Source of the DNA: Argopecten irradians
Lineage: Eukaryota; Mollusca; Bivalvia; Pectinida; Pectinidae
Reading direction: 5' to 3'
Assembly: GCF_041381155.1 (NCBI RefSeq)
Contig: NC_091138.1
Location: 31,737,604-31,801,603, forward strand
Length of the DNA: 64,000 bases
The position numbers were made by a program, and so were the translations under genes. Below the pieces are notes generated by a model. That model worked only from the letters and a program-made list of their open reading frames with translations. It was not told where the DNA came from and made no database searches. Shown in pieces: positions 6,115 to 59,820 of the stretch. How positions within the stretch are numbered: position 1 is the stretch's first letter; every line of letters begins with the position of its first letter.

Positions 6115-7380
6115 TTGTTTGGACCATTTGTAAAATGAATTTTAAGGTTAATTCCTCACAGACCTGCAAAGTTTGATACAGGCCTATGAGGGCTTTGTCA
6201 AGGCTCATCTGAAAACAATATACCTGATCCTTCTTTAATAAATGAAGGACTAGATCTAACTACTCCAACAATGTTAGAGGCATAGCATGACGAGACACAT
6301 TTGATCATTACGTCGTCTGTATTGCACATCAGAAGTTTTCTTGATACCGACGTCTAATATTATTGGATTAAGGTCTAACCAGTCAAACTGTATAAACAAA
6401 AACGGCCTAGGCTAAGGTTTTCCTTCATCCAAGCATGGTACAATCACAATACAAATGTACTATGTAAAAGTGTCATGACTTCTTGGTTACTGAGAAGTTT
6501 TGAAGGATTTTATCCAATTTAACACCGGTGACCATATACAAAGGTCAAAGTCGTTCATTTGAGAATGCTACATACCCAATATAGTCTTTTGGTCGAGGAA
6601 AAGCTGTTCAAATGATGGACACAATACCATGCCAAACCTTTTTTGGCTAACTAGATATTGGACCCAATAAGCGCCCCCATTCATTTATAAGCACCCCTCC
6701 CCCATTTTGGGTCGACATTAACTTAAAGATAGACTAAAACTTTGAAGACCATGTAGGTTTCTCTATTTGATTTCTTTCGTAAATTAATTAATGACTTGTT
6801 CTGTACAATAATTTTGTGAAATGTTAGCCCAAATATGGTCCTATTATAATCGCCCCTTCATTTTTAGCCTGCCATCATCAACTGGTGGGTTATTCAAATC
6901 GACGTCCTTCCATGGTCCGTTCGTCCGTTAACAATTCTTGTTATCGCTATTTCTTATCGCTATTTCTCAGAAAGTACTAATGGGATTTTGCTCAAATTTG
7001 ATGTGTAGGTTTCTCTTAGGTTTCTCTAGGGCCCTAGTTGAGCATATTGCATTTTGGTAACGATCAGTCAACAAAATGGCCGCCAGGCAGTCATCTTTGA
7101 TTTTGATAGTTAAAGTTTGTTACCGTTATTTCTCAGAAAGTACACAAGGGATCTTTCTCAAATTTTGATATGTAGGGTCGTTTTTATATACGGTTTGATT
7201 GGTTGGACCAAGTTGTACGCTTATGAATTAAAGACAGACCTGGTGATTTTATATTGTTTTCAGAAGAGCCTTGACAAAGCCCTCACAGACCTGTAATAAA
7301 AACTGCAGGTCCGTCAGGATTTATACTTGAAATAATGACTTTTAACAAATGGTCGAACCGGTTGTTCCAAATAAACTAAA
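6115..7380. repeat. Inverted pair of a dispersed repeat, about 110 bp per arm
   Basis: The segment at about 6115-6235 (core GAGGGCTTTGTCAAGGCTC, then CTGAAAACAATATA) recurs in reverse complement at about 7250-7375 (TATATTGTTTTCAG, then GAGCCTTGACAAAGCCCTC). Flanking matches such as GGACCATTTGT extend each arm to roughly 110 bp. This is either one element with long terminal inverted repeats or two opposed copies of one dispersed family. The interior holds short phrases about cells marked 'gcgcc', seen near 6670 and 6850, and the start of another repeat family at about 6880. No transposase reading frame is visible. Confidence 0.6.
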
Positions 7381-13492: not shown

Positions 13493-16400
13493 CTACAACA
13501 CCAGGAACAATAATACAAACTCACCTTAGCAGAATTTTATCTCAATATACAAGCAGTGCAAGTTATGTTTCACTTCATCCAAACAAGTTCCCAAATCAGT
13601 TTGAATTACTTTTATAAAGGATCTCATAGAAATCTCTCTAAAGAACAAACTTATTTTGCAATGCTTTCTAGCCATACAAATTTTTTTTTAAATTTTTTTA
13701 ATAGTTTTTATTTATAGATCAATTTTGTCAGCCCAGGAGGGAGCACATTACTAGGGTAGTGCCCTTGGATGACTTGACAAGTCCAAGCATGTCTTCAGAC
13801 CATAAAGTTGTAGGAAACTCACCGTGGTCCCCCATAACCTCCCTTGGGCTGACTGGGTACTGGTGCTGGCTTCTCCTGAGGAGCAAAACTGATCTCTTGG
13901 GCAAAGTCAAAGTGACACACCCCTGGTCCCTTGCGTATGAGGTAGCCCTCCCTTGGGGATATCTTCTTACCATCTATTGTTACATGGACAGTCTTAGCCT
14001 GAAAACCAAAGTGAGGGATGGATATACTGTAAAACCTGTTTAAACAATCACCTCTGAATACAGATAACCTACTTAATAATACCACTTTCTTAGGGCCCCA
14101 ATGGAGGAATTTCAATACAATATGACCACTTTATATAAAAGACCATTTTTCTTTGTTCCTTGGGTGGTCTTTAAAGACAGGTTAGACTGTACAACATGAC
14201 AATTCAGCAAATTAAAAAATCAAACCTTGAACCTGCTTGTATATATATACATGTAGGTAACTAAACATGTATGTAATAGAACCTGTATGTAGTAGAATCT
14301 GTGTGAAACAAAACCTGTATGTAATCTGTATGTAGCAGAACCTGAATGTAACAGAACCTGTGTATAAGAGAACCTGTGCATCCTGACATACTGACCCCAC
14401 GGTAGGTATCCTCTGGACTCTTGTTGTAGTTCCACACCCTCAGTCCAGCTACTAACACGGTCTGACCAAAGTCTATTGATAAGGTGTGGTTGTTCCCGTC
14501 AGTAAATGGCACCAGCCACATGTGTTCGTCAGACATGGTAACATTTATACCATCAATAACCCTGTAATGACATGTGTCAAAGATTAGTATCACAGACTTA
14601 CACAACAAATATGGTTACAATGATACCATCAGTAATACTACTATGACATGTGTCAAATACTGTGATCACAAACAATAACATATGACATATTTATATTAGT
14701 ACTGTCTATAATCCAACAACAACCCAACATGATACTGGTATAACAAGTAATGACATACAACAAAGTTATATTGGTAAAGTTATAACCCTAAAACAACACA
14801 ACATAATATTGTATTACAATTAATGACATACATCACAGTTATATTGGTAAATTTATGACCCTATAACAACACAACATGTCAAATTCTGGTATCACTAATT
14901 ATTATATAGGAAACTCCAATCATATGGTACATAGTGAAACTTTTTCAACTTGTTTTCTAAGACAAGTACTGTGATTAATAATAATTTTACTTCATGTAAT
15001 TAAATTCTATAAAAGTCTTACTTGTCCAATGTGCGGTCATCCCTTTCGTGACCTGGAAGTGAATGTAGGTCCATTGGAATGGCAGTGAGCATGCTCAGCT
15101 TGATAGGAAGTGCTTCCCCGTCTTTCCCCACCACTTCCAGACTGGTAAGTCCCATGTAGTGCAGGTCTCCCCAAGTCTCTGTGAAATTCAGCTCCAAACC
15201 TGCACAAAATTTTTCAGTTAAGATAAAACGTTGTTTATTTTCTGTTTGCAATTAAACACTGATGCAAAACGTGTCAAGCTTTAGTGCAATAGAATTTAAT
15301 GACACTCCAAATAAAAAATTGCTGTAAAAAAAGTCAGACATAAAAACATGAAATTAAGCAACACAGAAATAACTAACACTCATAAAACTGAGGTATGAAG
15401 TTGTGGTAGAAATTTTTGTGCTCAATGTTTCATTCTTACACAACCATGAATACTCACATCTTCCCCTGAACACAATAACCTTGCCCTCCCCAGTAATACT
15501 CACATCTCCCCCTGAACACAATAACCTTGCCCTCCCCAGTAATACTCACATCTTCCCCTGAACACAATAACCTTGCCCTCCCCAGTAATACTCACATCTT
15601 CCCCTGAACACAATAACCTTGCCCTCCCCAGTAATACTCACATCTCCTCCTGAACACAATACATCTCCCCCTAACACAATAACCTTGCCCTCCCCAGTAA
15701 TACTCACATCTCCTCCTGAACACAGTAAGGTTGCCCTCCCCAGTAATACTCACATCTCCCCCTGAACACAATACATCTCCCCCTGAACACAGTAAGGTCG
15801 CCCTCCCCGGTAATACTCACATCTCCCCCTGAACACAGTAAGGTTGCTCTTCCCGGTAATACTCGCATCTCCCCTTGAACACAATAAGGTTGCCCTCCCC
15901 GGTAATACTCGCATCTCCCCCTGAACACAGTAATGGTATACTGCATCTCCCCTAACACATAAGGTAATACTCACATCTCCCCCTGAACACAGTAAGGTTG
16001 CTCTTCCCGGTAATACTCGCATCTCCCTTGAACACAATAAGGTCGCCCTCCCCGGTAATACTCGCATCTCCCCTTGAACACAATAAGGTTGCCCTCCCCG
16101 GTAATACTCGCATCTCCCCCTGAACACAGTAAGGTTGCTCTCCCGGTAATACTCACATCTCCCCCTGAACACAGTAAGGTCGCCCTCCCCTGTAATACTC
16201 ACATCTCCCCCTGAACACAATAAGGTCGCCCTCCCCTGTAATACTAGTGGCAGGTCGTGGCAGTGAGGCAGCTTCCTTCTTAGCCTTTGTCTTTACATTA
16301 CCACAGGCTCTGGTGAACGGACGGTTCTACAATACAAATTACACAGAATATCAGTTATACTCTGGTGAACGGACGGTTTTACAATACAAAGTACACAGAA

Positions 16401-19400
16401 TATCAGTTATACTCTGGTGAACGGACAGTTCTACAATACAAAGTACACAGAATATCAGTTATACTCTGGTGAACGGACATTTCTACAATACAAATTACAC
16501 AGAATATCAGTTATACTCTGGTGAACGGACGGTTCTACAATACAAAGTACACAGAATATCAGTTATACTCTGGTGAACGGACGGTTCTACAATACAAAGT
16601 ACACAGAATATCAGTTATACTCTGGTGAATGGACGGTTCTACAATACAAATTACACAGAATATCAGTTATACAAAGAACAACAAAATCCAGTAATTTAAA
16701 TAATAGTCACTTTCCTATAGATATACCCCAACAAACCCGTTGAGGATACTGTGAACTCTTCTTATTCAATTATCAGAAAAGTTCATTATGAAATTTCAGG
16801 GGTGATGGGCAAATTAACAGCTCTACACTTTCAAGTGATGATTTTGGTTAATTGATCCATAAAATGTAACTGTCATTCCAAAATAACCAATGAAATTTTG
16901 GGTGTAAGATATGAAAGATTTAAGCAATACATTGAATTTGATATTGTTTATTTCTTTGAAGTACGTTGCCGCTATCTAATGAGAACAAACAATATTTGAC
17001 GTTGTTTACTTCTAAGATGTGACCGCTCTACACTGAGAACAAACTTACATCATCGCCCTCATCATCTGTATCAGGACGCTCAAACGCAACATCATAGAGT
17101 TCATCGTCACTAAACATATCGCCCTCATAGGCGTCGTCATTCTTAGATATGGCCTCCAAAGTATTCTCATCCATGGTAAACAGGAACGTCTGTAACATGT
17201 AAAACAGGCTAAATAAAGGAGGGTTACAAATAGATCTGAAGAACTTCACTTCATCCTACAGTATTGATTATTTTTATAAAGATCAAATATTGGAGATCAA
17301 TGTATCAAGAAACCGAACAAAATTACAAATATTTCATAAGCCCTAGGTATAAAGATCTTTGTCCCCCTCTTCTATAGCCCCAGTAATTAATCCCCTATCG
17401 GTAAAACTGGAGGGGACTATAGTGTTAGTCTCCCCTCTTCTATAGCCCCAGTAATTAGTCCCCTATCAGTAAAACTGGAGGGGACTATAGTGTTAGTCTC
17501 TGTGTCCCCCTCTTCTATAGCCCCAGTAATTAGTCCCCTATCGATAAAACTGGAGGGGACTATAGTGTTAGTCTCTGTGTCCCCCTCTATAGTCCCCCTT
17601 TCTATAGCCCCAGTAATTAGTCCCCTATCAGTAAAACTGGAGGGGACTATAGTGTTAGTCTCTGTGTCCCCCTCTTCTATAGCCCCAGTAATTAGTCCCC
17701 TATCGGTAAAACTGGATGGGACTATAGTGTTAGTCTCTGTGTCCCCCTCTTCTATGGCCCAAGTAATTAATCCCCTATTGGTAAAAACTGGAGAGGACTA
17801 TAGTAGTCTTCTCCCCTCTTCTATAGCCCCAGTAATTAGTCCCCTATCAGTAAAACTGGAGAGGACTATAGTGTTAGTCTCTGTGTCCCCCTCTTCTATA
17901 GGCCCCAGTAATTAGTCCCCTATCAGTAAAAACTGGAGGGGACTAATAGTGTTAGTCCTCTGTGTCCCCCTCTTCTATAGCCCCAGTAATTAGTCCCCTA
18001 TCGATAAAACTGGAGGGGACTATAGTGTTTAGTCTCTGAGTCCCCCTCTTCTAAAATAGCCCCAGTAAATTAGTCCCCTATCGGTAAAACTGGATGGACT
18101 ATAGTGTTAGTCTCTGTGTCCCCCTCTTCTATGGCCCAAGTAATTAATCCCCTATTGGTAAAACTGGAGAGGGACTATAGTGTTAGTCTCTGTGTCCCCC
18201 TCTTCTATAGCCCCAGTAATTAGTCCCCTATCGGTAAAACTGGAGGGGACTATAGTGTTAGTCTCTGTGTCCCCCTCTTCTATAGCCCCAGTAATTAGTC
18301 CCCTATCTGTAAAACTGGATGGGACTATAGTGTTAGTCTCTGTGTCCCCCTCTTCTATAGCCCCAGTAATTAGTCCCCTATCGGTAAAACAGGAGGGAAA
18401 TATAGTGTTAGTCTCTGTGTCCCCCTCTTCTATAGCCCCAGTAATTAGTCCTGTATTGGTAAAACTGGAGGGGACTATAATGTTAGTCTCTGTCTGTCTG
18501 TGTCCTGATGCTGGGTTTTCAGATGATAACTTCAGAACGGATTGCTGGATTTTGATGAAATTTCATACAATGGTAGTTTAATACATAGCACAGCTTAGAA
18601 TTGAATTTGGGGTCAACAGGTCAATTAAAATGGTCAATGTTACTAAAAATAAAGTTATGTCAATGCATCCCTTCCCCTTCTAAAACGTATACCGGGTGGT
18701 ATAGCTTCTATAACCCAAGTATACTGGAATCTATGTCTCCTCCATAGCCCCATTACTTACGTCGCCGAAGGCTTCTGTGCCTCCCTCAATCCCTCCACAA
18801 GCCCTGGCTATTTCACCCTTGAATATTGGGACATTGTCCAGTGTGATGACTGCATCTTTCACGCCCCGATAGGAATGAATCCTTGACTTGTTATAATTCT
18901 TCAAAATAAATGAAGATAAGAAGAGTAAGCGTTATTTGACAAGACTTTCCAGGAATTTAAAATCATGCAGAGGACTTTTCGTAGATCCGAGACCAACACA
19001 CACACATTTATTTGAATAAAACTCTTTTATATATACCGGGTAGACATAACTAACACTCTGAATAAACAATTATTTTATTTTATTTATCTGCAGAAGAAAG
19101 CATTTTTCTTTGAATAAATGAACTATATAATCTCTGTATTGTTACTGAATATCGTAGAAAATGTTAATTTTGATAAGTACATACCCATATCCTCATTAAT
19201 GCTACTTTACAAGGTTTTTCAAATGTCAGATACACCATGTGTTTGGCTGTACGACTAAACGGGGCCAGCCACATATGTACGTCGTCCCGCGTACGATTCA
19301 CGCCGTCTATCAGATTACTGACGACTCGAGGATCTTTGTTGTATTCTGGTAAAATATTGATATCCAGAGGGTTGGCTGTAATCTGGTGAAGAGAATGAAG

Positions 19401-22400
19401 AATTATCATACATCAAATATTATAGAGAATATGGGTAAACAAGAGGCCCAGAGGGCCTGTATCGCTCACCTGGTTTGTAATGCCAAGTAATGTTCTGAAT
19501 ACAGGTTCATTGTTTCTTTCTGAAGGAATTTTAATATTAACCTCTAAATCCCCTATTGGGCCCCACCCCTCCTGCGCCCAGGGGGTCAAAGCCAAAATTT
19601 ATTAAAGTTCTGTTCCCCTTCCCCCACGGGTGTTTATGGCCAAATTTGGTCACAATCCAAGCAAAACGCTAGGACAAGTAGCGATTTATAGGATTTACCT
19701 CTATTTCCCCTATTGGGCCCCACCCGTCCTGCCCCCAGGGGGCCAGAGCCAAAATTTATACAAGTTCTGTTCCCCTTCCAAAAGGGTTTTTGTGGCCAAA
19801 TTTGGTTACATTCCATGCAGAACTCTGTGACTAGTAGCGATTTAAAGGATTTACCTCTATTGGGCCCCACCTCTCCTGCCCCCAGGGTGTCAGAGGCAAA
19901 ATTTATATAAGTTCTGTTCCCCTTTCCCCAAGGATGTTTGTGGCCAAATTTGGTTACAATCCATGCAGAACTCTATGACTAGTAGCGATTTAAAGGGTTA
20001 ACCTCTATTTCCCCTATTGGGCCCCACTCCTCCTGCCCCCGGGGGATCAGAGCCAAAATTTATACAAGTTCTGTTCCCCTTCCCCATGGACGGTTGTGGC
20101 CAAATTTGGTTACAATCCATGCAGAACTCTAGGACAAGTAGCGATTTATACAATTTGCCTCTATTTCCCCTATTGGGCCCCCCTCCTCCTGCCCCCGGGG
20201 GATCAGAGCCAAAATTTATACAAGTTCTGTTCCCCTTCCCCTAAGGGTGTTTATGGCCAAATTTGGTTACATTCCATTCAGAACTCTAGGACTAGTAGCG
20301 ATTTAAAGGATTTACCTCTATTTCCTCTATTGGGCCCGGGGGGTCAGAGCCAAAATTTATACAAGTTCTGTTCCCCCTCCCCCAAGGATGTTTGTGGCCA
20401 AATTTGGTTACAATCCATGCAGAACTCTATGACTAGTAGCGATTTAAAGGAAATGTTAACGGACAGACGGACGACGGACGACGGACGCCGCGCCATGACA
20501 TGAGCTCACCGGCCCTTCGGGCCAGGTGAGCTAAAAATCACAAATTTATATACAATGTATACATGTACATCAAATTGAAAATGAAAAAATTCATATGATC
20601 ATACACAAAGTGTACCAAAAAATATTTTTCAATATGACTGAAGTAGTCATTACAGGGAAATGAGAACTTTTCAGTTCTTCAATTTATTTTGTCTATCAGT
20701 TTCTTCAATATTTGGGCTTCATCAAGACAAACACTATTTTTGATGTTGTAATTGAGAATCAAAAGCACACAGTGCAACCTTATTTCATAGTGGTACCCTA
20801 CAATAAGGTATCAAATCTACAAGTTATCTGACCTTAGAAATTATCACTGCCTCTCCTGTATAAGACTACTGACCTTAGAAATGACCACTGGCTCTCCTGT
20901 ATAAGACTACTGACCTTAGAAATGACCACTGGCTCTCCTGTATAAGACTACTGACCTTAGAAATGACCACTGGCTCTCCTGTATAAGACTACTGACCTTA
21001 GAAATGACCACTGGCTCTCCTGTATAAGACTACTGACCTTAGAAATGACCACTGGCTCTCCTGTATAAGACTACTGACCTTAGAAATGACCACTGGCTCT
21101 CCTGTATAAGACTACTGACCTTAGAAATGACCACTGGCTCTCCTGTATAAGACTACTGACCTTAGAAATGACCACTGGCTCTCCTGTATAAGACTACTGA
21201 CCTTAGAAATTATCACTGCCTCTCCTGTAAAAGACTACTGACCTTAGAAATGACCACTGACTCTCCTGTATAAGACTACTGACCTTAGAAATGACCACTG
21301 GCTCTCCTGTATAAGACTACTGACCTTAGAAATTATCACTGCCTCTCCTGTATAAGACTACTGACCTTAGAAATGACCACTGACTCTCCTGTATAAGACT
21401 ACTAACCTTAGAAATGACCACTGGCTCTCCTGCAAAGACTACTGACCTTGGAAATGACCACTGGCTCTCCTGTATAAGACTACTGACCTTAGAAATGACC
21501 ACTGGCTCTCCTGTATAAGACTACTGACCTTAGAAATGACCACTAGCTTTCCCGTATTAGACTACTGACCTTAGAAATGACCACTGGCTCTCCTGCAAAG
21601 ACTACTGACCTTAGAAATGACCACTGGCTCTCCTGTATAAGACTACTGACCTTAGAAATGACCACTGACTCTCCTGTATAAGACTACTGACCAAAGAAAT
21701 GACCACTGGCTCAACTGTATAAGACTGCTGACCATAGAAATTATCACTGGCTCTCCTGTATAAGACTACTGACCTTAGAAATGACCACAAGCTTTCCTGT
21801 ATAAGACTACTGATCTTAGAAATGACCACTAGCTTTCCTGTAAAAGGCTACTGACCATAGAAATGACCACTGGCTCTCCTGTATAAGACTGCTGACCTTA
21901 GAAATGACCACTTGCTTTCTTGTATAAGACTACTGACCTTTAAAATGACCACTTGCTTTCTTGTATAAGACTACTGACCAAAGAAATGACCACTGGCTCT
22001 CCTGTATAAGACTGCTGACCTTAGAAATGACCACTGGCTCTCCTGTATAAGACTACTGACCTTAGAAATGACCACTGACTCTCCTGTATAAGACTACTGA
22101 CCAAAGAAATGACCACTGGCTCAACTGTATAAGACTGCTGACCATAGAAATTATCACTGGCTCTCCTGTATAAGACTACTGACCTTAGAAATGACCACTA
22201 GCTTTCCTGTATAAGACTACTGATCTTAGAAATGACCACTAGCTTTCCTGTAAAAGGCTACTGACCATAGAAATGACCACTGGCTCTCCTGTATAAGACT
22301 GCTGACCTTAGAAATGACCACTTGCTTTCTTGTATAAGACTACTGACCTTTAAAATGACCACTTGCTTTCTTGTATAAGACTACTGACCTTAGAAATGAC

Positions 22401-25400
22401 AACTAGCTTTCCTGTATAAGACTACTGACCTTTGAAATTACCACTAGCTTTCCTGTATAAAAGTACTGACCTTAGAAATGACCACTTGCTTTCCTGTACT
22501 TAGAAATGACCACTTGCTTTCCTGTATAAGACTACTGACCTTAGAAATGACCACTGGCTCTCCTGTATTAAACTACTGACCTTAGAAATGACCACTGGCT
22601 CTCCAGTACTTGAGAAGACCTCGATACCGGTCAGACCAACATAGTGGTTATCTCCCCATGTTGACCTGATGTCGATCACCAGATCCTTTCCATATGGTAG
22701 CTCAGGAATGATGAAATCTTCATCTCTATTATAGAAAACATGTATCCGTGTTAATGATATACTGTATGTGTAGTTGTTATCATATTTTAACACTTTCTAC
22801 AAAAGAAATTTTGTTATTGAATATGCTTGCACCAATTGTATTCATACCTTTCATGTAGCAATCACAGGGAAATTGCAAATTCATAGTAGCTTTAACAATT
22901 TCAAAATCAAGATTGTGGTAAAATTTGATTGCACCAAATAGGTACATTTAACAGTATCAATTACTGTATTATACTGGAGTTTAGAAAAATCCTGTATATG
23001 GAACTGTATCCTTCATCTTTATAGTGTGGTATGTGTCAAAGTGTTTGTATCAGTTACCATGTACTATAGGAACAGATGATAAAACAGACATACGAATCTG
23101 ATTACAAAATACAAAGAAATTTCAATGAGAGATGTGTGACTTACTCGACAGAAATCTCTTCAGTATTGGCAGTGATCTGTACAGTCTCCCCCTCCTCCTC
23201 AGCGATGGTCGGCTGGGGCTTAGCCAGAGGCTTCAGGTACTCGTCCAGGGCATCGTCTGTAAAATACAAATCAAAGTACTGAAAGTACTGAATCCTAAAA
23301 TCTGTAACAACAAAAAAAGTCCCAATTCAAATTGACTTCAAGTTCCCCAGGCCCTTATTAAAGCAAATATGGTAAAATAAAAAATGTGTGAAATAAAGAG
23401 ATGAAAAAAGATCTTAAATGCCACATCGAGGTTTTCAGTTCTACACCATTTTAACAGTTAATATGTTATTTATAGCTATATCATGTTTTGGAAAGTTAAT
23501 AGTTCCATTGGAAAAAGCAGCAACCCAATAGTTGGCCAATGTGTGATTGTTCACGCAATGAAATTCCATTTCATATTCAGTCATATCCTACATTATGTGT
23601 TTACTAACACTATTTACAATAAGTTTTATGTGCTTTTTAACATACTGATTGCAATTTGTTGGAAAATATCAAGCATGTGTGTTTTAAATGTTATAGTAAA
23701 ACCTACCGTCCAGGTCCATGGATATCCTGCCCTTCTGATGCCGGTCAAACATATTCAGAGATCCCCACGATTCTTCAAGGTTCTTCTTTTGAGATTCTCG
23801 CCATTTGGCTCGGTTTTGCTGTATCTTCTGCATGGGTGTGTTTTTAGCCTCTCCCTCTGTACAACAAAAATTTTAATTTTCTTCGCTACCACGGTAATGA
23901 TAATGCTATATTCTAAAAGCTTCATCTTGATTTCCAGACACTACTTTTTTAAATTAAGAAGGTATTATCAAAAGAATAAGGTTTGTTTTGATTACACAGA
24001 TAAATAAAGATCTAAATGCTTAATCACCATGCAATCTTTATGTACAGAGAATGATATTTATGAACTGAGTAATGAGGGCCCAGTATGTATGAATCACTGG
24101 ATATCAGGTGCATTATGTGATAAAGACAAATAGACAAGAAAACAAGTCTTACAGATTTCACAAACATGAAGTAACCTACCTTTGATTGGTGGTTTGTCAT
24201 CATTAAACACTGTCTTAAGCTCTTTTTTCCTAAAAAGTATACCAATATAATAGGTTAAACGAATATAAAATTGTGCCAAATCTGATACATTTTTTTTTCT
24301 ATTCCCCCCTCCCCCTTAGGTTATGTAGCACTGTAATTTTAAACTATGAAAAAAAAAAAGTTAAAATATCTTACAATGCTAAATATTTTTATATTATAAC
24401 AACACTAAGAGAACAAACACAGGAGACCATACAGGAACAAAAACCATCCTCTATCATTGAGGCAACAACAATTACAAAAGACAATTCTTAGAATGACTAC
24501 ACTTATATCAGAATTCTGCTGCTGGCATATTCTGTATTGGCATATTACAAAGTTATCTGCCCTTGCAGGTAGGTAACGATTGTGATATCAAGTGTTTGCA
24601 CTCACAAAATAATGACGAAACAATCAATACCTACCCACAAGGGAGCTAACTCTGTAATATGCAAAGAAGGAATATGAAGAGATCAAACCCAACAAGGGAA
24701 TGACTTCATGGACACATAAACTAAGAGGTACTTACTCTGGCCACATGGCCATTTCTTCCTCTATGAGCTGGTCAACTGTCTCTTTAGAGTCTGGTTCTGG
24801 GGGAGCTTCCATCACGGGCTTAGAATCTGATACTACATGGCTGGCCACAGGGTTCTCAAATGCTCCTGAAACATCTTCTGATTTCAACCATTTTGGAATG
24901 TCCTTTTTTCTCTTCTGGTCCCTGCAGATCAAATGATAGACAAATAAATTAATTTATATCATGAACATTTTCAAGAGTTCATAAAAGAAGGATATTCATT
25001 ATGGAAATTACAGTAAAATTTCAGACTTTTTATTTTACTGCTGGTACCTATGAATAGAAAAGCGGTTATTAAGCTATAAACTTTATTTCCACTACATAAA
25101 TTGTGAAATAAATTACTCTTGATGACCTGGATGTAAGCATACGAGAGGTCTTAAGAGTGGGAGGAAACCTAAGTACCTAGAGAAACCCAGGTGACTCAGC
25201 AAGTGTTGACCCTGTCCTTTTTATGTCCATGCTGCAGAGCAAACCCTACCTGGCTAGGTTGTAGTAAGTAGCTCAATCACCACAACACCTGATCATTCTT
25301 ATAGTAGAGATACATAATCAGGAGCTTAAAGTAAAAGTTCCAGACTTTTTAATCTTATTGCTCATTACAGAGAATATGGTAACTGTTCTCAAAACTTCTG

Positions 25401-28400
25401 ATCCAATTACAACACAGTTAATCTGAATGTAGAGCTTCTTATAGTAGAGGGGGCTCTCATTACATATGGTGTCATTATAAAAAGGTGTGGTCATTACAGA
25501 GAATACGGTATAACAAGGTGTGGTTATAACCAAACTTATTACAGAGAATACTGTATAACAATGTGTGGTCATTACAGAGAATACAGTATGACAAAGTGTG
25601 GTCATTACAGAGAATACGGTATGACAAGGTGTGGTCAATACAGAGAATACGGTATAACAATGTGTGGTCATTACAGAGAATACAGTATGACAAAGTGTGG
25701 TCATTACAGAGAATACAGTATAACAAGGTGTGGTCATTACAGAGAATACGGTATAACAAGGTGTGGTCATTACAGAGAATACAGTATAACAAGGTGTGGT
25801 CATTACAGAGAATACAGTATAACAAGGTGTGGTCATTACAGAGAATACAGTATAACAAGGTGTGGTCATTACAGAGAATACAGTATAACAATGTGTGGTC
25901 ATTACAGAGAATACAGTATAACAAGGTGTGGTCATTACAGAGAATACAGGTATAAAAACAAAGTGTGGTCATTACAGAGAATACAGTATAACAAGGTGTG
26001 GTCATTACAGAGAATACAGTATAACAAGGTATGGTCATTACAGAGAATACGGTATAACAAGGTGTGGTCATTACAGAGAATACAGTATAACAAGGTATGG
26101 TCATTACAGAGAATACAGTATAACAAAGTGTGGTCATTACAGAGAATACAGTATAACAAGGTGTGGTCATTACAGAGAATACAGTATAACAAGGTGTGGT
26201 CATTACAGAGAATACAGTATAACAAGGTGTGGTCATTACAGAGAATACAGTATAACAAGGTGTGGTCATTACAGAGAATACAGTATAACAAGGTGTGGTC
26301 ATTACAGAGAATACAGTATAACAAGGTGTGGTCATTACAGAGAATACAGTATAACAAGGTGTGGTCATTACAGAGAATACGGTAAGAATACAGTATAACA
26401 AAGTGTGGTCATTACAGAGAATACGGTATAACAAGGTGTGGTCATTACAGAGAATACAGTATAACAAGGTGTGGTCATTACAGAGAATACAGTATAACAA
26501 GGTGTGGTCATTACAGAGAATACGGTAAGAATACAGTATAACAAGGTGTGGTCATTACAGAGAATACGGTATAACAAGGTGTGGTCATTACAGAGAATAC
26601 AGTATAACAAGGTGTGGTCATTACAGAGAATACAGTATAACAAGGTGTGGTCATTACAGAGAATACAGTATAACAAGGTGTGGTCATTACAGAGAATACA
26701 GTATAACAAGGTGTGGTCATTACAGAGAATACGGTAAAACAAAGTAGTGTGGTCATTACAGAGAATACGGTAAGAATACGGTATAACAAGGTGTGGTCAT
26801 TACAGAGAATACAGTATAACAAGGTGTGGTCATTACAGAGAATACAGTATAACAAGGTGTGGTCATTACAGAGAATACAGTATAACAAGGTGTGGTCATT
26901 ACAGAGAATACAGTATAACAAGGTGTGGTCATTACAGAGAATACAGTATAACAAGGTGTGGTCATTACAGAGAATACAGTATAACAAGGTGTGGTCATTA
27001 CAGAGAATACAGTATAACAAGGTATGGTCATTACAGAGAATACAGTATAACAAAGTGTGGTCATTACAGAGAATACAGTATAACAAGGTGTGGTCATTAC
27101 AGAGAATACGGTATGACAAGGTGTGGTCATTACAGAGAATACAGTATGACAAGGTGTGGTCATTACAGAGAATACAGTATAACAAGGTGTGGTCATTACA
27201 GAGAATACAGTATAACAAGGTGTGGTCATTACAGAGAATACAGTATAACAATGTGTGGTCATTACAGAGAATACAGTATAACAAGGTGTGGTCATTACAG
27301 AGAATACAGTATAACAAGGTGTGGTCATTACAGAGAATACAGTATGACAAGGTGTGGTCATTACAGAGAATACAATATAACAAGGTGTGGTCATTACAGA
27401 TAATATGGTATAACAAGGTGTGGTCATTACAGAGAATACAGTATAACAAGGTGTGGTCATTACAGAGAATACGGTATAACAAGGTGTGGTCATTACAGAG
27501 AATACGGTAAGAATACAGTATAACAAAGTGTGGTCATTACAGAGAATACGGTAAAACAAGGTGTGGTCATTACAACGGTAAACAAGGTGTGGTCATTACA
27601 GAGAATACGGTATAACAAGGTGTGGTCATTACAGAGAATACAGTATGACAAGGTGTGGTCATTACAGAGAATACAGTATAACAAGGTGTGGTCATTACGG
27701 AGAATACGGTATAACAATGTGTGGTCATTACAGAGAATACAGTATAACAAGGTGTGGTCATTACAGAGAATACAGTATAACAAGGTGTGGTCATTACAGA
27801 GAATACAGTATAACAAGGTGTGGTCATTACAGAGAATACAGTATAACAAGGTGTGGTCATTACATAGAATACAGTATAACAAGTGTGGTCATTACAGAGA
27901 ATACAGTATAACAAGGTGTGGTCATTACAGAGAATACAGTATAACAAGGTGTGGTCATTACAGAGAATACGGTAAGAATACAGTATAACAAAGTGTGGTC
28001 ATTACAGAGAATACGGTAAAACAAGGTGTGTGGTCATTACAGAGAATACGGTATAACAAGGTGTGGTCATTACAGAGAATACAGTATAACAATGTGTGGT
28101 CATTACAGAGAATACAGTATAACAAAGTGTGGTCATTACAGAGAATACAGTAAAACAAGGTGTGGTCATTACAGAGAATACAGTATAACAAAGTGTGGTC
28201 ATTACAGAGAATACAGTAAAACAAGGTGTGGTCATTACAGAGAATACAGTATAACAAAGTGTGGTCATTAGAGAGAATACAGTATAACAAAGTGTGGTCA
28301 TTACAGAGAATACAGTATAACAATGTGTGGTCATTACAGAGAATACGGTATAACAAGGTGTGGTCATTACAGAGAATACGGTAAGAATAATAACAAGGTG

Positions 28401-43400: not shown

Positions 43401-46400
43401 TACATGTACTTTGGTATTTGTATCATCCTTATTTCAAATTCAAGTAAATCCAAAATCACTGGCAAGTATTTGTGTATTATAATGAATCAGTTAGAAATAA
43501 GCAGGTCTATTTTTTCAAAATAAAAGTCATCTTCAATTTATATGAAATTAATACATGGAGAATCTGACACTTATCATTATCGAACTTATCGTTGTACATT
43601 TGTGTATTATACCGAAATAGCTGTGATTATGGCATAATTAACCTCATCTTTACCCTACAAAGCCTTTAGCTTGTAATGAATTAAGTAAATTTAAAATAGC
43701 AGTTAAAACTGTTTCCTGTTTTTTTATGCTTGCCATGGCCTATATCTGCTTATTTCCATAAAGGAACATAATACATATTCTACAGACCTCTACAGATTTC
43801 TGCAGCGACTTCTGGACTGATTTTTGTACAGATCTTTGCATCGATTTCTGTGTGGATTTCTGCACTGATTTCTGTGTGGATTTTTGTGTTGACTTTTGAG
43901 CTGATTTCTGCACCATATCTTGGACAGGTCGAGTGGCTTTGACAGGTTCGCTTGGCGAAGCTTTGGGAATGTGCTGTAGTTTATCTTCTTCTAGGGAATC
44001 ATCAAGATCTCCTAGCACCTTCATCAACTTCTTCTGTTGTCTAGAGAAAAGGGGATCACATGTGTTAGTTACTTGAAGTCAGCGGAGTCAAGGAAACATA
44101 TTCTGTTTTCTGTGCGAGTTCAACGAGCATTTTCATTGGCTTAAAAATTTACTTTATCTGTTCATAAAGGATAAAATGATATCACCATTATCACCATATT
44201 GGTTGATATATGCAACAATACTAATCTTATATTTGATAAAATCCTACATATCAATATTAAAGAAATCATGATATGAATGTACAAGGAAAATGACAAAAAA
44301 TTACAATAATATATTAGAAAGCAAACGGTATTAGGGGTTAAAAAATGTCTTACTTGGGCTGCATCATTAAGACCTTCTTCATTATATTTGTTAGTCTGTC
44401 GTCTGCCAGGAAACTCTTGGAGTCGTCAGCACTGGCCCTTGGAGTGGTAGCGGGTTTGGAGCGAGGACTTGGTGTTGGGCCTGACCGTCGTATATCTGAC
44501 TTCCTCAATGGCGAGTCTTTACTGACAGATGGTTTGGGTTCCTACACAAAAATCATCCATTGGATTTATTACCTGTTCCATCCTTTATACATGCATTACC
44601 ATGACAGATACATAATAATTATTATGCTAATCCATGTACAATAGTTTCAACACAAAAATATTACAGGTCAACACATTTAAAAGAGCTCATGTTCATGTTT
44701 CATCAGTTCATAGCTGCAGTTCAGTAAATTTTGTGTTTGTCAAAATAAGCAAGGGTATGCTTAGTGATGTTTGTGTTTGTCCAAATAAGCTAGGGCATGC
44801 TTAGTGATGTTTGTGTTTGTCCAAATAAGCTAGGGCATGCTTAGTGATGTTTGTGGAGGAAAGCCAGAGGGTTAGAGTATCTGGAGAAATAATTGTTGAT
44901 CAAACTTAAGGACCTGTCATATGTACACTATCAACTTTTGACCTAGAGGTCATCAAACAACCCCCCTCTCCTTCCCAAAGTCCCTACGAGGTAAATGACA
45001 CAGACCTGTTTGCTGATTGACGTAGCTGGTATCCTCTGTCTGCCCTTTGCTGCCTTATCATTCTCTGCCTTCAGTGCGGCCAGCACAGCTGAAGCTTCCT
45101 CCTTGGGGTCAGCCTGGTGGTCTCGACTCACCCTATTGGCTGATAGTGGACGGTTAGACTTCTTGGCTGTCACATCTGAATTAAAGACAGATTAATTATG
45201 GTGTATGATATCACAGAATTAGTGACATATTCAACCTCTCATTCATAGCAGTTTAAATGATATTTTTGTGATTATTGGTAATTTTGCAATGTTCGTTTCT
45301 ACTCCCTTGTGACATACAGTCAGAGTTGCCATTTAGGCAGGTTACAAACAATAACTTGTACATTCTTCAACATTTAACTAGAACAAATAAAGTATTTTGT
45401 CCATGTAATAGTAAGAGTATATGAGTTGGGATTTCGACGAGTCAAGTATCTTATTTTGGACCCAGATGTTTTTTATAGTTTACTTACTAGACTGTAACAC
45501 TGCAGACTTGGCCCGGGGTGTTTTAGAACTGGTGTTAGAAGATTTACTTTGATAGCTGGTGTCCATTTCCACATCCTTTTTCCTAGCAATTGATAAGTTT
45601 TTCTCCAGTTTTCCTGTATCAAAAAATGACCTAGAGTCTTAAATCATCATAAGATAACAAGTAATCTATTTATATACATGACATAACGGACAACCTATGT
45701 TAACTACAATGTACATAAGATTTCATATTGCATTATATCTTCTCTTCTAAATATCTTAGTATTTAGACATTTATAGTCAAACACTTCTAAATATCTTAGT
45801 ATTTAGACATTTATAGTCAAACACTTCTAAATATCTTAGTATTTAGACATTTATAGTCAAACACTTCTAAACTGAGGAGTATAACATTCTAATATTATCT
45901 AATTTAAAAAAAAAACTTTAACTTTTTGATTCAATGACCCTGACCTCAAAATGAAAAGTAAAGATTAATATTTCAATAAAACACATTTATTATCTTGTGA
46001 TAACTTAAATTTTCAAATTTTTAGCAGTGACACTACAAGTGTACAGAAGTCATCTTAGTTATTAATTATGTCCGGTCAAAGGTCAAATTTCTTTTTAAGC
46101 ATCAAAAGGTATGCTAAGATAATGTTGTATGTTCTTCCATGTGGACCTGTTAATGGGGTTCATTAACAATATCATGTTTTATTTGGAACACTAATTTTGT
46201 TACTGTAATTTCTGAAGATTTTTTAGTGGAAAGATTCTTATTTCATAATGTCTAACAGTGTTTTTTTTATGTCCTATTAACAGCTAGGCCATTTAAGGAC
46301 TGGCCAAGTTTGGAAAATGGTAGAAAGCCAGAGTACCTAGAGAAAAAATGGTAGAAAGCCAGAGTACCTAGAGAAAAACTATCAATCTATGGCGAGTACT

Positions 46401-52755: not shown

Positions 52756-53195
52756 CCTGCTTAATTTGATATCAATCAGAAATCCAGAATATCATAGAAT
52801 ATTATTTTAAAGAAGCACACGGTTTTGGTTGACATTCCATAGTAAACTAAATGCTGCGCTTGCGCATTGAATTTAAGCGTCTACTTGATCAACTTTCGTC
52901 TTGACCTAATGTATTTTCTTCCTCAAAATCAAACGCACAACGTTATCCGAGGTAATGTGAACCGGATGAAAACACAAGATGTGTCCCGAAATTCGCACGT
53001 TCATTCGGAATGTTGGAGAGATGCGAAAACGTGAAAAGCAAAATTTAGAGAGAAAAGCTGCTTGCAAACTTGTAATGAAGCTCACCGTCCTATGACAATA
53101 TACAATGTATAGTGTCATGTGTTTGAAGAATTATATATTCCATCCATAGAAAATAATTTTGGTTCAAAAGTAGAATTGATATTCGATTTGACCAT
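52756..53195. promoter_or_regulatory. Divergent promoter region between KATNIP and TSEN54
   Basis: Only 440 bp separate the KATNIP start codon (minus) from that of TSEN54 (plus). The stretch 52850-53095 is clearly richer in CpG than the surrounding DNA (for example CTGCGCTTGCGC, ATTCGCACGTTCATTCGG and GCGAAAACGTG). No TATA box is convincing. The arrangement suggests a shared bidirectional promoter driving a ciliary gene and a tRNA-processing gene; the transcription start sites are not visible. Confidence 0.6.
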
Positions 53196-56100
53196 ATGAT
53201 GGCCAACGACACAACATCACTTTCATTGCAAGATAAAGTTCCAGACGCAGTCCTGTTGAAAGAAAAGGTTCTGAGGTGATTTTGATAAGTAATGTTATAA
53301 ACTCTATTGATATAATGACTGTAACGGGACTGGACTGGGTCGATCATTGGTGACAAGGCTAGGTACATTATGTACATTGGTCCTTGGTTCTGTAGAAAAA
53401 AAACCCCCAAAAAACAGTGCATGACATATAAACTTCATCTTGAAGGTTTGTCATTATCCCCGAAGAAGAAGAAGGGAGGATTCGAACCTGAACCCGGGAC
53501 TTCCGAACACTAGCCGGATGCTCTATTGCTGAGCTACCTGTACCTGGTAACTGGTGATCGATCCTGTCCAACTGGCCACTACATTTTATCCACTCTTGTT
53601 ACAAAATTGGCGTCTGGTTAATCAAATCTCTATTAGATATTTCATTTACAATGTGCCTTAGTTTATATGACACATGGATCCAGTCACTTAGCTTTTCGCA
53701 GTAAGAAGCATCAGTGATGAAATAAGAACTGGGAGTTTGAGATATTAACAATGTAATAAAAATTCTATGTTCATTATTTACTCCTTAAAACTGTTTGAAC
53801 ATCAAATTTTAATTACCATAGATTGGAGATTTCAACTACAGCCTGTTGATTGCAACAGGATTTAACTTGTCCCATGCAGTGACTCTAGCTCCATGATTGT
53901 TTGTAATACTAACATGTTCATATAAAATCTTCTTATTGTAGTGCCCAGGAACTCTTTAAATACCGCAGACCACTTGACAAATCTGTACCAAACAGAGGTG
54001 GGGCTAAAGACTTTGAACCCGATGGCTCTTTCCTTCAGTCTAAGTGGATTGAGGCTCTCAGTCAGGAAAGGTCAAAAATCCTCAGAGAACAAAGAGTTGA
54101 GCGAGAGTAAGTGACTATTAAAAAAAAAGAAAATGTATAACAAAGTGTTTACATGATGTACAGTAACAGCTTGCATCCTGCATGTGTCCAAGACAATTTA
54201 TGTAGGCAATCAATTAATCAATATTTTCAAATATTTTGGTTTATTGGCTATAGACAGTTGTATTTCAAACTGAAAATAGCTCGCTGTTACAGGCCAATGA
54301 GAATAATAATTTATTTTTAATAAATTATCTGAAATAGAGAAGGATCTTATGTAAGTTGATGATAATTAATTTTAGTAATATATTGCATTATATTGTTGTG
54401 ACAGTTTTTAGTTAATTATGACAAGATTACAACCAGGAACCTTCAGAAAGCATACTTCAACATCATAAAACATAAAAGTATATACCAGTATGTACTGCAA
54501 GTTGAATTTTCTTATTATTTTTTTTAATCTGGTAGAGGTGGCTTGGTGAAAGGAGAATGGAATAAAGACCTCCAACTTGTTGAACTTGAAAAAGAAATGG
54601 TAAGTATCTAGTCAATTGTTATTTAAAGAGAAAGTATCTAGTCAATTGTTATTTCAAGAGAATTTACATGGAATCCTTATTATTTTCAGAACCACTAAGA
54701 TTGATATGCATAAGTTAAAACTTAATGTGTTACAGAAGTATCGTGGTGAATTCAAAGTTGCAGTCAGATGACTGTTTTTCAAATTTTGGTTTCTGACTAA
54801 TCGATACCATCACTGGGTTTGTTTTGTGAAGTATGATACACAGTCCTCTGTATCACAAAATTCTTATAACATACCCAGGTAAGGTTTGTATTCCTTATTC
54901 ATTATACTACTTTTGTTTGATTATTTTTGCCAACAAATGTTAAATGTAGTTTGTTTATCTACAGGGGAAGTTTTGGACCTACATGGGATTTATAGACAGT
55001 AGTAGGAAATGGTTGTTTCCAGAAGAGGCACTGTTCCTGATGGAAACTGTAAGTGATGTTTGAGATCTTTTCCATTTAATTAACCAGTCATAAAGGTTTT
55101 CGTCTCTTTGAAGTTTCCATGCAACTCTGATTAGTCCTAGTAACAGTCAGGGCAGAAATCAAGGTATATAAAGTTTTCCCAAAAACTGTTTAGGTATAAT
55201 TCTTAGCTTGATCAAGTCTTAAACTAATGATTCTTCGGGTTCTTCTTTTTCCGCCACGACTTTGTCCAACCATTTTCTCGAATATGATAAGTCGGATCGC
55301 CATGAAATTTTTGCAAGGTCATTTCTGGTGACCTGCAGATGTGACGACTAGTCCGAATCGCCTTAAATCGGTTTCAATATGTAGTTTAAATCATATTCTA
55401 AATTGTAATAGTGAAAAATACCATAATCATGTGTAAACAAAAAGCAAATTTTGTGACGGTTTCAAATTTTCTAAACCCAGTAAGAGTTATTTCCCTTTAT
55501 TCACTGTTCAGCAGGGATCCGTTTTAAGTGTAATTTCATTTTTAATGTATTTTTAAGTTATAGATAATATTGTTACTAGTGACATAAAACAATTTTGAAG
55601 TCATTTTTGGTGACCTGCAGATGTGCAACTTTTGCAGACCAGGAACCAAGATGGCCGCCACGGCATGCAATTGGTCAAAGTTGAACAAAAAGGAATATGG
55701 TTGAGAACACAAATCTAATACAATTATAGACATTGCTGTGCCTAATATATAAAGTTTAAATGATGTGACTTTTCAAAAAGTATTTTTCTTCTGTGAAATA
55801 GAATTTATTTACTGGTAAAACAATGTCACGTCATCATTCAGGGGAGGTCACTCTTGTCAAATTAAGCTCTGTGGAGATTTGGGAACTTTATGTGACGGCA
55901 CTAGTCACAATTAGATCTTGTTGCTATATAGATTTGAAGTTTTATTCCTTCTTATGGTCTGTAGTGTTGTGCTAGGATTTTTCTACTAACCTTTACTCTT
56001 ACCTGTAGTGTTATTTTAATATCTGGAAATCAGAAATATGCTTTCAAAACATAGAGGATTACTGATATCTAACTTGTGACACACGGAAATATTTTTCTCT

Positions 56101-59100
56101 GACAGAACACACTGGTAGTAAACTATAAGGGATTACCTCTCAGTATCCAGCAGGCATACGCAGCATTTCTAGGATCTGTTACTATGACAACCGACTGCTA
56201 CCTGGTATATTCCCACCTACGGAGACTGGGTTACGTAGTGCTGCGACATCAGGGATGGTGAGTTAAACAATCCTTGGAATTGTGGCACAAGGGTTGGTAC
56301 ACCCCATTAAATCTGTAATATATCTGGAATGGTTTGTCAAATACAATGTACTCCATTAAAACAGCATTAAGAATGGTTTGTCAAATACGCCATTTAAACA
56401 GCATAAGGAATGGTTTTTCAAATACCATATTAAATTTTAAGCATAAGAATTTATTATTAGTACTATGCAAATTGTTTCCATTTATGGGATAAATAGATCT
56501 ATGTAATATTTTGAACTTGAAACATTTTGCAAACATTATCACAGACATCGCGAAAGTTGAAAAAAATAGCCGTACATTCGGACTGGCAAGGACTGTGAGT
56601 AAGCCGGACTGAACAAGATTTGCCAGACCAAACTTAAATCTGAATTTTTGAAGTAAACATAACTTCCTGCTATTAGTATCCAGGCAGCTGTTTTCATGAT
56701 TATCATATGCAGTTTATGTTTTTGCCAGGTTTTGAAATAGGAGGTCCGAGTCGTATTTTGTCAGACATGTCCTTCAGACCAGCAAATTTTGCGATGTCTG
56801 TTATTGTTAGTTATTTTGACAAATATTTGTCTTATTTTGAATAATATGCAGTGTTTACTTCAGTATTTCACTTTTGGGTTTTCACAGTCTAGATGTCACA
56901 AAGTATGAAAGGAAAATACATCTCGACCAGCATGTAAAAACCGACAAAAAGAAGAGAAAGCACAAAGGTGATCCCAATGTCAATAACACTAGTCTAGGTA
57001 AAGGTCATAAGAAGGTCAAGGTCACCACTGAGGTCAATGATGAGGAAGTAACGAAAGAACAGATAAACAGTGATCATTCTGACCAATGTGTATCAGAAAT
57101 GGAAGTGGATAGACCTACAGCTGAAGGAGTGAATAATGAAAGGACGAATGATGTGGAAGTATGGGACTCTGATGGAACAGCTGGTGACAGCGATGTGGAT
57201 AGAACCACAGTTGTACTTGAAAGGGTGAATAAACAAAGGACATGTGACACCGATGTGTGGGACATTAGTGGTACAGCAGAGGACATGATGGAGGATGGGG
57301 AAGGACAGTGTGTACCTTACTCTGTGTGGGATTTTGATAAATTGTGTTTCCCTAACATAGGGGGTGTAGAAGTACTAGAGTTACAGTTCCCAAGACTGGA
57401 CCTACTGCCCCACGGAGTAGACCTCAGTGAAGCATCCAATACATTTGACGTTAAGGAGTATTTTTCACAGCAAAGAAAACGTAACAAAAAACAACGAAGA
57501 CGACAACAACAGCAACAGGACAGTGTAGAAAATTTGAAATTTTCTTATTCAGAAATGATTCATAAAAGGAGAAAAATAACTGCCTCAAATTGGGGAGAGT
57601 ATAAAAAGAAGATGGCAATTAAAGACATTGAGGATGAAAATGTGTTTGTCTCCCCAGCAGAGTGTTTATGGGAAGGGGAGATAACTCCATTAGTAAGACC
57701 AAGTGATGCCATATCCACAGGTATAAATATCTGCTTTATTTATCAATATATAAAAAATTCTTTCCTTGAAAAACTTTCATTTTTGCACGATCATTAATTT
57801 AATAATAGAGAATTATTGATATCAGAGGAATTAGCAAATATATACTGAAACAACATATCTATTAAATGTTTGCCAAAATTTCATTAAATCAGTCTGCCAA
57901 AATATTTCATATTCTAGATGAAAGTTGTTTTACATATGTAAATGGATGATAATTTCTTTTTAAATCATCACCAAATGTTAAATTACTATATTATAAATGT
58001 TTTTGATGCGTGATAAAGTTCCTATATTCTCCGTTTCAGAAAACATCCTGAATAAGTTGCAGATTATAGAAAGTGTCAATCTTACGAGACGACCAAGGTA
58101 AAAAAATACTGTACACCAACTTTCTTTTGTGTGCGATTAACTTCCAGGAATTTCGCATACCAAGTTTATTCACGAAAGTTTATCTCTGCGATTTAATATC
58201 TACATCGTTTATATGGATAGGAATTTCCATTTAAATTTAAATCAATGAATGTTCATATTTTCAAATTTGTTTTGAGTGGAAATCGCAAAATTAGTAGCTA
58301 CAGAAGAAAGTTGGTTTATAGTGCAGGAATTGTATTCATATCAATGTCTGAATTTAGTCACTTTTGATTAAAAGTGAATTTTTCATTGTTCCAAAAACAT
58401 ATATTAAACATTTTATAAAACAAACAAACAAAAAATTAGATAATTGACAAGCATAAGAGTGTCTTCTCATGTAATGTCGTAGGAGCAGATTAATGTCTTG
58501 TCAGACTAAGGTTAGTATCCGACAAAGTCTTTAGCGAGTAAGTGTCCTGGTCATTGTTGTTTTATTTTACCCGTAAAAGTTACCTGGTAGATTATCCTAT
58601 AGTTAACCTGAAGGAGTGGTGTTGTCTTATTTTTCCTGTAGTTTCTAGGTAGACATGCCTGTAAATTTACCTAAATGAGTGGTGTTTGATGTTTTATTTT
58701 ACCTGTACATATCCCAGATAGACACATCTGTTGAGGAACCTAAATGAGTGGTGTTTGATGTTTTATTTTACCTGTACAGATCCCAGATAGACACATCTGT
58801 TGAGGAACCTAAATGAGTGGTGTTTGATGTTTTATTTTACCTGTACAGATCCCAGATAGACACATCTGTTGATGAACCTAAATGAGTGGTGTTTGATGTT
58901 TTATTTTACTTGTACAGATCCCAGATAGACACATCTGTTGATGAACCTAAATGAGTGGTGTTTGATGTTTTATTTTACCTGTACAGATCCCAGGTAGACA
59001 CATCTGTTGATGAACCTAAATGAGTGGTGTTTGATGTTTTATTTTACCTGTACAGATCCCAGGTAGACACATCTGTTGATGAACCTAAATGAGTGGTGTT

Positions 59101-59820
59101 TGATGTTTTATTTTACCTGTACAGATCCCAGGTAGACACATCTGTTGATAAACCTGATGAACCCGAAGGAGTGGTGTTTGATGTATACCTGCCTGATGCC
59201 AAGTTTAAAAAGTCCAGACCAGGAGTTCCTAATCACAGAGTTTGTGTTTCAAAGTAAGTTTTATAATGTGTTATAATGATTTAATATTGAATAAGAGTTC
59301 ATATTCACCAAAAGTTATACATGAACCAGACACTTATACCTGTATTTTCTCAATATAAAAAGAGTTATTGCCCTTGTTTGAAAAATTATTTTTGGCGTGA
59401 TTGGATACATATATTTCTTTGATATAAGGCAAAGACATGCGATAACTGTTGACATAAATAAATTCTTTCATTGATGTTAACAGCGGATCTACTGTACATT
59501 TACTCATGACTATACATACTCTGATATGTTTACTATGATAATTCAGGGCTTACAATTATTCTTTTAAGACAATATCTCTGTTGTGTGATTTATTCAGTTG
59601 AGATGCAATAAGATAGCTCCTAAGTGCACACTGATTTCTTATTCATAAAAATTTGTGTTTTAGGATCCATGGACATCCACCAAGCCTCCAGCAAATTACG
59701 AGTACTCAAAGATTATTTACGGATGATGTGCCAATCAGCTGGGCTGTACTCGACCATGGAGACATAGCTTTCTATCAATTTTCAGACATTTGTCTCCCTC
59801 AGGAAATTTCTATGGGGTAG
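53196..59820 (+). CDS. TSEN54: TSEN54, tRNA-splicing endonuclease subunit, nine coding exons
   Basis: Exons 53196-53275, 53942-54106, 54536-54599, 54965-55048, 56106-56257, 56888-57720, 58040-58097, 59125-59253 and 59664-59820 join in phase to 1722 nt (573 aa; human 526). TSEN54 is a structural subunit of the nuclear heterotetramer that removes introns from pre-tRNAs. Family marks are LRSAQELF, KDFEPDGS, EQRVERE, GGLVKGEWN, GKFWTYMGF, FPEEALFLMET, LPLSIQQAYAAF and the C-terminal VYSHLRRLGYVVLRHQGW of the N domain. The long exon 6 is a poorly conserved, charged linker. The C domain follows, with GVVFDVYLPDAKFKK and VPISWAVLDHGDIAFYQFSD. It lacks the catalytic residues of TSEN2 and TSEN34, as expected. 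Two in-frame ATGs (53196 and 53199) open the frame. Confidence 0.95.
53395..53550 (-). mobile_element. tRNA-derived SINE in TSEN54 intron 1
   Basis: On the minus strand a tRNA-like head is clear: GTAGCTCAGCAATAGAGCAT (A-box) and CAGGTTCGAATCCTCCC (B-box), then a CTTCTTCTTCTTCGGGG run and a tail reaching a T/G-rich stretch (plus strand AAAAAAAACCCCC) at about 53396. The head would fold only partly as a cloverleaf, since the anticodon arm is weak and no acceptor stem is evident, so it is a SINE and not a tRNA gene. Confidence 0.75.
54601..54660 (+). repeat. Two-copy 29-bp tandem duplication at the TSEN54 exon 3 donor
   Basis: The sequence AGTATCTAGTCAATTGTTAT with its A-rich tail follows the exon 3 donor (GTAAGTATCTAG) and is repeated at once as GAAAGTATCTAGTCAATTG. 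The first copy overlaps the donor; the second has GAAAGT in place of GTAAGT. It is a minimal, two-unit case of a duplicated donor flank. Confidence 0.7.
55235..55690 (+). repeat. Dispersed repeat in TSEN54 intron 4
   Basis: The block contains TCTTTTTCCGCCACGACTTT, GCCATGAAATTTTTGCAAGG and two copies of TTT-TGGTGACCTGCAGATGTG (about 55322 and 55605), then AAGATGGCCGCCACGGCATG. Internal direct repetition and style match high-copy bivalve repeats, but I cannot name the family. It contains no coding frame. Confidence 0.45.
58600..59124 (+). repeat. 69-bp minisatellite copied from the TSEN54 exon 8 acceptor
   Basis: About seven units of 69 bp run into exon 8. Each holds TTTTATTTTACCTGTACAG followed by ATCCCAGATAGACACATCTG and TTGATGAACC, that is, the 3' splice site and the first codons of exon 8 (SQVDTSVD). 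Exon 8 (from 59125) is in register with the array and its first ~65 nt are the last unit, changed so as to stay open; the other units carry an in-frame TGA after GATGAACCTAAA. Units closest to the exon have CCAGGTAGAC like the exon, and those further away CCAGATAGAC. The earliest unit is degenerate. Confidence 0.93.

Follow-up and report, generated by a model that had tools for sequence, protein, structure and literature searches.

The stretch of DNA analysed here (the window, 64,000 nucleotides) holds two neighbouring gene models, which were built with a simple gene finder and corrected by hand for frame continuity:

10442-50996, minus strand: KATNIP-like gene with 36 modelled exons; its 5' end is provisional.
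53949-59820, plus strand: TSEN54-like gene with 8 modelled exons; its start is provisional.

Pfam places DUF4457 in exons 17-36 of the first gene (E 1.4e-183) and again in exons 12-14 (E 2e-20); KATNIP is the name used for proteins with this domain. The product of the second gene carries the Sen54 N-terminal domain PF12928 (Pfam, E 9.1e-17) and matches PDB chain 8iss_D (Sen54, E 8.8e-63). A single frame runs to a stop across KATNIP-like exons 17-36, and likewise across all eight TSEN54-like exons. KATNIP-like exons 15 (36284-35763) and 16 (32911-32785) are doubtful, their phase being incompatible with exon 17, and were retained in the splice-site counts. An exon at 55842-55891 in an early TSEN54 model was removed in view of the human protein, and the 8iss_D alignment then crossed the join. 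Viral contigs, the only contigs searched, yielded no relative for a portion of the KATNIP-like protein, nor an ortholog showing the locus before the arrays. We infer that exons 24, 26, 28, and 30 of an earlier, sequence-only reading of this DNA correspond to 22725-22581, 18898-18761, 16326-16203, and 14561-14396 on the minus strand, and its TSEN54 exon 8 to 59125-59253 on the plus strand; these exon numbers are used below.

Tandem repeats are abundant at the locus. TRF returned 50 rows for the window, and arrays cover 16156 of the 46427 bp in the two gene spans. The largest, a 5.9-kb array at 25538-31415, consists of ∼175 copies of a 33-bp unit and begins 20 bp past a KATNIP donor; since the unit length is divisible by three, long open frames run along both strands of it and are probably spurious. 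A 3.2-kb array at 37837-41072 contains ∼180 copies of an 18-bp unit and is likewise open in several frames on both strands, with one ORF of 691 aa; these ORFs are probably not a gene. Six pairs of inverted repeats lie within 14390-18800, and Rfam gave no match at gathering scores.

We scanned 90 bp around each of the 86 modelled splice sites for copies within ∼2 kb, which had to cover the junction by at least eight bases on each side. Tandem copies span five of the 86 sites, two donors and three acceptors (a slash marks the junction):

Array A, 20828-22616, minus strand: 41-bp units (43 fitted) containing the 3' end and donor, CTAAG/GTCAGT, of exon 24 (22725-22581); donor at 22581, score 131.
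Array B, 16308-16672, minus strand: seven 52-bp units containing the acceptor, TTGTAG/AACCGTCC, of exon 28 (16326-16203); acceptor at 16326, score 123.
Array C, 15449-16245, minus strand: ∼46-bp units (16 fitted) containing 40 nt of the 3' end of exon 28 (16326-16203) and its donor, GAGAT/GTGAGT; donor at 16203, score 146.
Array E, 58618-59162, plus strand: eight units of ∼69 bp containing the acceptor, CTGTACAG/ATCCCAG, of TSEN54 exon 8 (59125-59253); acceptor at 59125, score 147.
Array F, 14562-14877, minus strand: degenerate copies of 73-76 bp containing the acceptor junction of exon 30 (14561-14396); acceptor at 14561, score 54.

The scan separates these sites from the rest: four score 123-147, the fifth 54, and the sixth-ranked of the 86 only 25. 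The four high-scoring arrays are the ones that the sequence-only reading had described as built from exon-intron junctions recurring in two neighbouring genes, and the scan bears out both the junctions and the recurrence, with one gene on each strand. Array F was absent from that reading. Its TRF bounds are 14656-14877, and the clearest of its copies is found 76 bp upstream of the exon 30 acceptor. The relation between an array and its junction was also examined by shuffling (300 shuffles each, six comparisons), with array A as the positive control, for which 0 of 300 shuffles reached the observed score. The exon 30 acceptor aligns with the 73-bp array F at a score of 71, which was likewise reached in 0 of 300. 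Outside the listed arrays, 3.0% of 400 random positions reach a junction-scan score of at least 40. Among all 578 random positions the figure is 32%, against five of the 86 splice sites, because arrays occupy much of the window.

The unit lengths of the junction arrays are 41 (A), 46 (C), 52 (B), 69 (E), and 73 bp (F). Each unit of array A joins 23 nt from the end of the exon to the donor GTCAGT and an intron segment ending in ACAG. In arrays A, B, C, and E the native site lies at the exon side: it is the exon-proximal copy of array A, the first copy of array C, and the last copy of arrays B (exon-proximal) and E. In array A, eight consecutive units at 21183-20856 are identical and units elsewhere vary, which is the usual pattern of tandem turnover. 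A higher-order repeat is also present in this array, at 21633-22370: eight 41-bp units reappear as a block 410 bp along, carrying almost the same set of variants. By eye, end units have diverged, namely the last of array A (20855) and the first of array E (58618).

Two further arrays had been connected with junctions in the sequence-only reading, one as a probable fifth case and one as a short sixth array:

17364-18493, minus strand: 75-bp array in the intron after exon 26 (18898-18761).
14252-14377, minus strand: 16-bp array that begins 18 bp past the donor of exon 30 (14561-14396).

For the 75-bp array, the relation to the exon 26 donor is suggestive at most on its alignment, which scores 36.5 and is equalled in 1 of 300 shuffles (uncorrected, with six comparisons); the donor itself falls outside the 30 best of the 86 sites in the junction scan. 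Viral contigs contained no match to a 29-base stretch of the 75-bp unit. The 16-bp array lies just past the exon 30 donor, as had been said. It does not contain the junction, and 224 of 300 shuffles reach its observed score, so we do not count it as built from the junction. Two other candidates were rejected by the same comparison: the 33-bp array next to the donor at 31436 (241 of 300) and a coding repeat ending at the donor at 43788 (280 of 300). The latter is a minisatellite of 12/36 bp at 43791-43912 that encodes QKS-type repeats and extends to 4 bp or less from the exon's donor.

Several shorter repeats were noted near splice sites in the same survey. A 30-bp duplication in two copies (54602-54662) starts at intron position +3 of a TSEN54 donor, about two copies of a 41-bp unit (42609-42695) end 5 bp upstream of a KATNIP acceptor, and a very short tandem repeat at 13069-13090, detected at a TRF threshold of 30, overlaps a KATNIP acceptor. 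Elsewhere in the KATNIP-like gene, a 157-bp array (19536-20540) adjoins a palindrome-headed element (CTCACCTGGCCCGAAGGGCCGGTGAGC). This dispersed repeat near 20540 is presumably mollusc-like.

Whether arrays meet splice sites more often than chance depends on how they are placed. Three placement nulls were applied to 22 arrays, obtained by taking the TRF rows that fall in the two gene spans and merging overlaps by hand, and the nulls disagree in a telling way. With whole arrays placed uniformly in the gene spans, a mean of 7.7 arrays and 29 sites overlap; the four arrays covering four sites that are observed within TRF bounds lie below this mean, under a null that allows kilobase arrays to overrun exons. 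Under the founder-unit null, 1.08 of the 22 arrays are expected to span a junction and five do (P 0.0026); for the 14 arrays of ∼3 or more copies, 0.90 are expected (P 0.0008). Under the intron-constrained null, an array edge lies within 20 bp of a splice site in 9 of 22 arrays (0.94 expected). When arrays are subtracted from the intron lengths and the exonic array at 43791-43912 is dropped, this becomes 8 of 21 arrays against 1.53 expected (P 7e-5), an excess of about fivefold. The excess at 20 bp is stable over TRF thresholds from 30 to 150, with wholly exonic arrays dropped (P 1e-5 to 5e-4), and over removal of the doubtful KATNIP exons 15 and 16 (P 4e-5). It is weak once the exonic array is taken out along with the four that span a junction: of the remaining 17 arrays, 2 have an edge within 10 bp (P 0.13), and 4 do at both 20 bp (P 0.03) and 30 bp (P 0.11).

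The expectation that arrays and splice sites coincide beyond chance, on which the sequence-only reading had staked its proposal, thus fails within the window under random placement of whole arrays and holds for array edges confined to introns. The data support that array edges lie at splice sites beyond the intron-constrained expectation in this window, with statistics that are post hoc, that come from a single window, and in which four of the five junction arrays fall inside ∼8 kb of one gene. It is therefore quite possible, if short of probable, that chance and constraint account for the pattern, some founder units in a minisatellite-rich stretch happening to include a junction with no preference for it. 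The whole-array null, the post hoc clustering, and the weakness of the edge excess without the spanning arrays all fit this explanation; the founder-unit null and the stable edge excess argue against it. Such a chance origin would be compatible with the mirage-type reading, set out below, of what the arrays are.

The copied sites were then considered for function. The reading frame continues through the first copy at donors and through the last at acceptors, and none of the 66 alternative sites tested keeps it (array A, 0 of 39 GGTCAG donors; C, 0 of 15; B and E, 0 of 6 acceptors each). The 15 non-native sites scanned in array C consist of 10 GT and five GC, and AG is present in five of the six alternative acceptors of B and in five of the six of E. 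The 69-bp extension in array E is in frame yet contains a stop. Nor do the copied splice dinucleotides show clear extra conservation. GT is found in 41 of 43 copies of array A (per base 0.977, against 0.945 at other positions) and in 11 of 16 copies of array C (0.844 against 0.923), and AG in six of seven copies of array B (0.929 against 0.980); array A is thus slightly above, and B and C are below, the remaining positions. Taken together, the loss of frame at the tested copies and the lack of clear extra conservation do not clearly point to alternative sites under selection or to the making of introns. On the reading frame, the native site is probably the only one used in vivo. Clean native splicing should not be taken for granted, given copies in array A that score as high as the native donor and given that copies in the acceptor arrays B and E are transcribed ahead of the native acceptor.

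These results bear on two functional explanations. The sequence-only reading had proposed that the arrays show intron gain in progress, and more broadly, the junction copies could be a source of new splice sites, introns, and exons. Tandem duplication of the Rogers type is a documented route to introns (PMC4974935), and the amphioxus authors propose such a route for mirages (PMC3087553). The copies of array A also resemble mini-exons of 23 nt, preceded by AG and followed by GTCAGT, several of which were chained by the gene finder. However, introns are already present at the array junctions, and the frame and conservation results run counter to the proposal, which we regard as very improbable; the arrays look like a by-product of DNA duplication and not like new introns in the making. 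A second explanation, that the copies act as regulatory decoys diverting some transcript to nonsense-mediated decay and so tuning expression, strikes us as only slightly less improbable. Many distal sites equal the native ones in strength (with a simple donor matrix, 30 of 43 copies in array A match the native donor score of 8.4), and the tested distal sites give loss of frame or a premature stop. Against this, the copies show no clear sign of upkeep, with GT lost in five of 16 copies of array C and AG missing from a single copy in each of B and E.

To consider how the arrays arose, the homology at their edges was read. One AGTATT in the exon and another within the exon 28 donor region flank array C (read off the sequence), and in array A, AGGTC occurs in the exon about one unit upstream of the AG/GTC donor (from a gapped alignment). 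Edge homology of at least six bases is found in ∼1% of random duplications, in a random sample that includes array positions. Eleven arrays were taken, of which seven, all near-perfect, were usable (array E and those at 54602, 56349, and 7963 were left out as unusable). Their edge homology amounts to one base in the 52-bp array B, one at 42609, six at 44730, eight at 45744, three at 46314, one at 6941, and none at 50165, so that five of the seven, B included, have three bases or fewer. Slippage at conserved AGGT motifs had been named as a possible cause. The donor sequence included in the edge homology of the two donor arrays, C and A, is in line with slippage at junction motifs; array B, with one base, counts against it. 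Since the arrays at 44730 and 45744 lie away from junctions and have six and eight bases, the seeding looks generic.

We therefore consider it likely that the arrays are mirage-type minisatellites, that is, duplications straddling a junction that expanded on the intron side, with the exon-proximal copy fixed and the others drifting. In this process, short direct repeats would probably have allowed slippage or template switching, by which a short segment straddling an exon-intron junction was tandemly duplicated; slippage or unequal exchange would then have expanded it on the intron side. The exon-adjacent copy would be held in place by its continuing role in coding for the exon edge and providing a working splice site, and the duplication would be tolerated because this site still works. 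The remaining copies would drift as intron sequence, presumably neutrally. The origin would then be a generic short-homology duplication followed by expansion into the intron. A lesion linked to transcription, R-loops, or splicing, which the sequence-only reading had also raised, could instead make splice junctions hotspots of array birth. The crowding of array edges around splice sites seen in this window speaks for such a lesion. Against it, arrays remote from junctions also have flanking direct repeats of comparable length, and a generic process could be enough; we think the lesion unlikely.

The sequence-only reading knew of no named class for such arrays, and here the literature corrects it. 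Mirages, as described for amphioxus in PMC3087553, are tandem repeats that span exon-intron boundaries, 5' and 3'. Their units measure 10 to 160 bp, and many copies, though not every one, carry AG/GT. At Adh3 the repeats are unstable in length and somatically; normal splicing is apparently undisturbed by mirages, which are also suggested as an intron-gain route. The genes concerned are Adh3, the globins BflGb6 and BflGb9, TnC, and PGBD5 (PMC3087553, PMC3902484), with PGBD5 added and TnC cited by PMC3902484. The ends of mirage clusters escape homogenisation, and the hosts in these two papers are cephalochordates only. The present arrays share several features with mirages: their unit spans the boundary (at five of 86 splice sites), 5' and 3' boundaries are both involved, the 41-73 bp units lie inside the range given in PMC3087553, and AG/GT is retained in many, not all, copies. 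They differ in size, with up to ∼43 units against the 6 and 3 given for the two BflGb6 haplotypes, and in density, with five in two adjacent genes. Judged by anatomy, and as far as they are known here from sequence alone, the arrays are mirages. Among the literature matches listed, there was no report of mirages in molluscs, most subscription papers being outside the reach of the search. The dispersed repeat near 20540, if mollusc-like, would extend mirages beyond the lancelets.

PMC3087553 and PMC3902484 describe mirages from a handful of lancelet genes. Five arrays in two adjacent genes, together with edges crowded at splice sites, suggest that they may be commoner. The arrays bear on whether splice junctions are mutation hotspots and on how far a gene can tolerate dozens of near-perfect decoy splice sites. 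A wider possibility is that splice junctions are true hotspots of minisatellite birth here, outside cephalochordates, and that mirages are a widespread class of mutation in animals, tied to a junction-linked process and feeding the evolution of splice sites; we hold this to be doubtful.

Other known systems resemble the arrays in part. In tandem-duplication intron gain, exemplified in PMC4974935 by ATP2A1, 24-bp repeats in fission yeast, and potato RdRp, the duplicated segment also holds splice signals. The Rogers model, as given there, requires a duplicated exonic AGGT segment, a new intron, and an unchanged peptide; here, in contrast, the copies lie within pre-existing introns, where the tested sites break the frame. 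Human genes in segmental duplications carry internal tandem repeats at exon-intron boundaries, which alter the transcripts of recent paralogs (PMC2812944). Those repeats are also of minisatellite size at boundaries and differ in that transcripts are altered there, whereas the present arrays are known from DNA alone. A splice-donor minisatellite in IFI6 (6-16) was reportedly described by Turri in 1995. In this human minisatellite, tandem units repeat the splice donor, as they do at the donor arrays described here, and according to PMC4526556 downstream units are used in mRNA. The two systems part at this point: downstream units serve as donors in IFI6, whereas the donor copies tested here break the frame.
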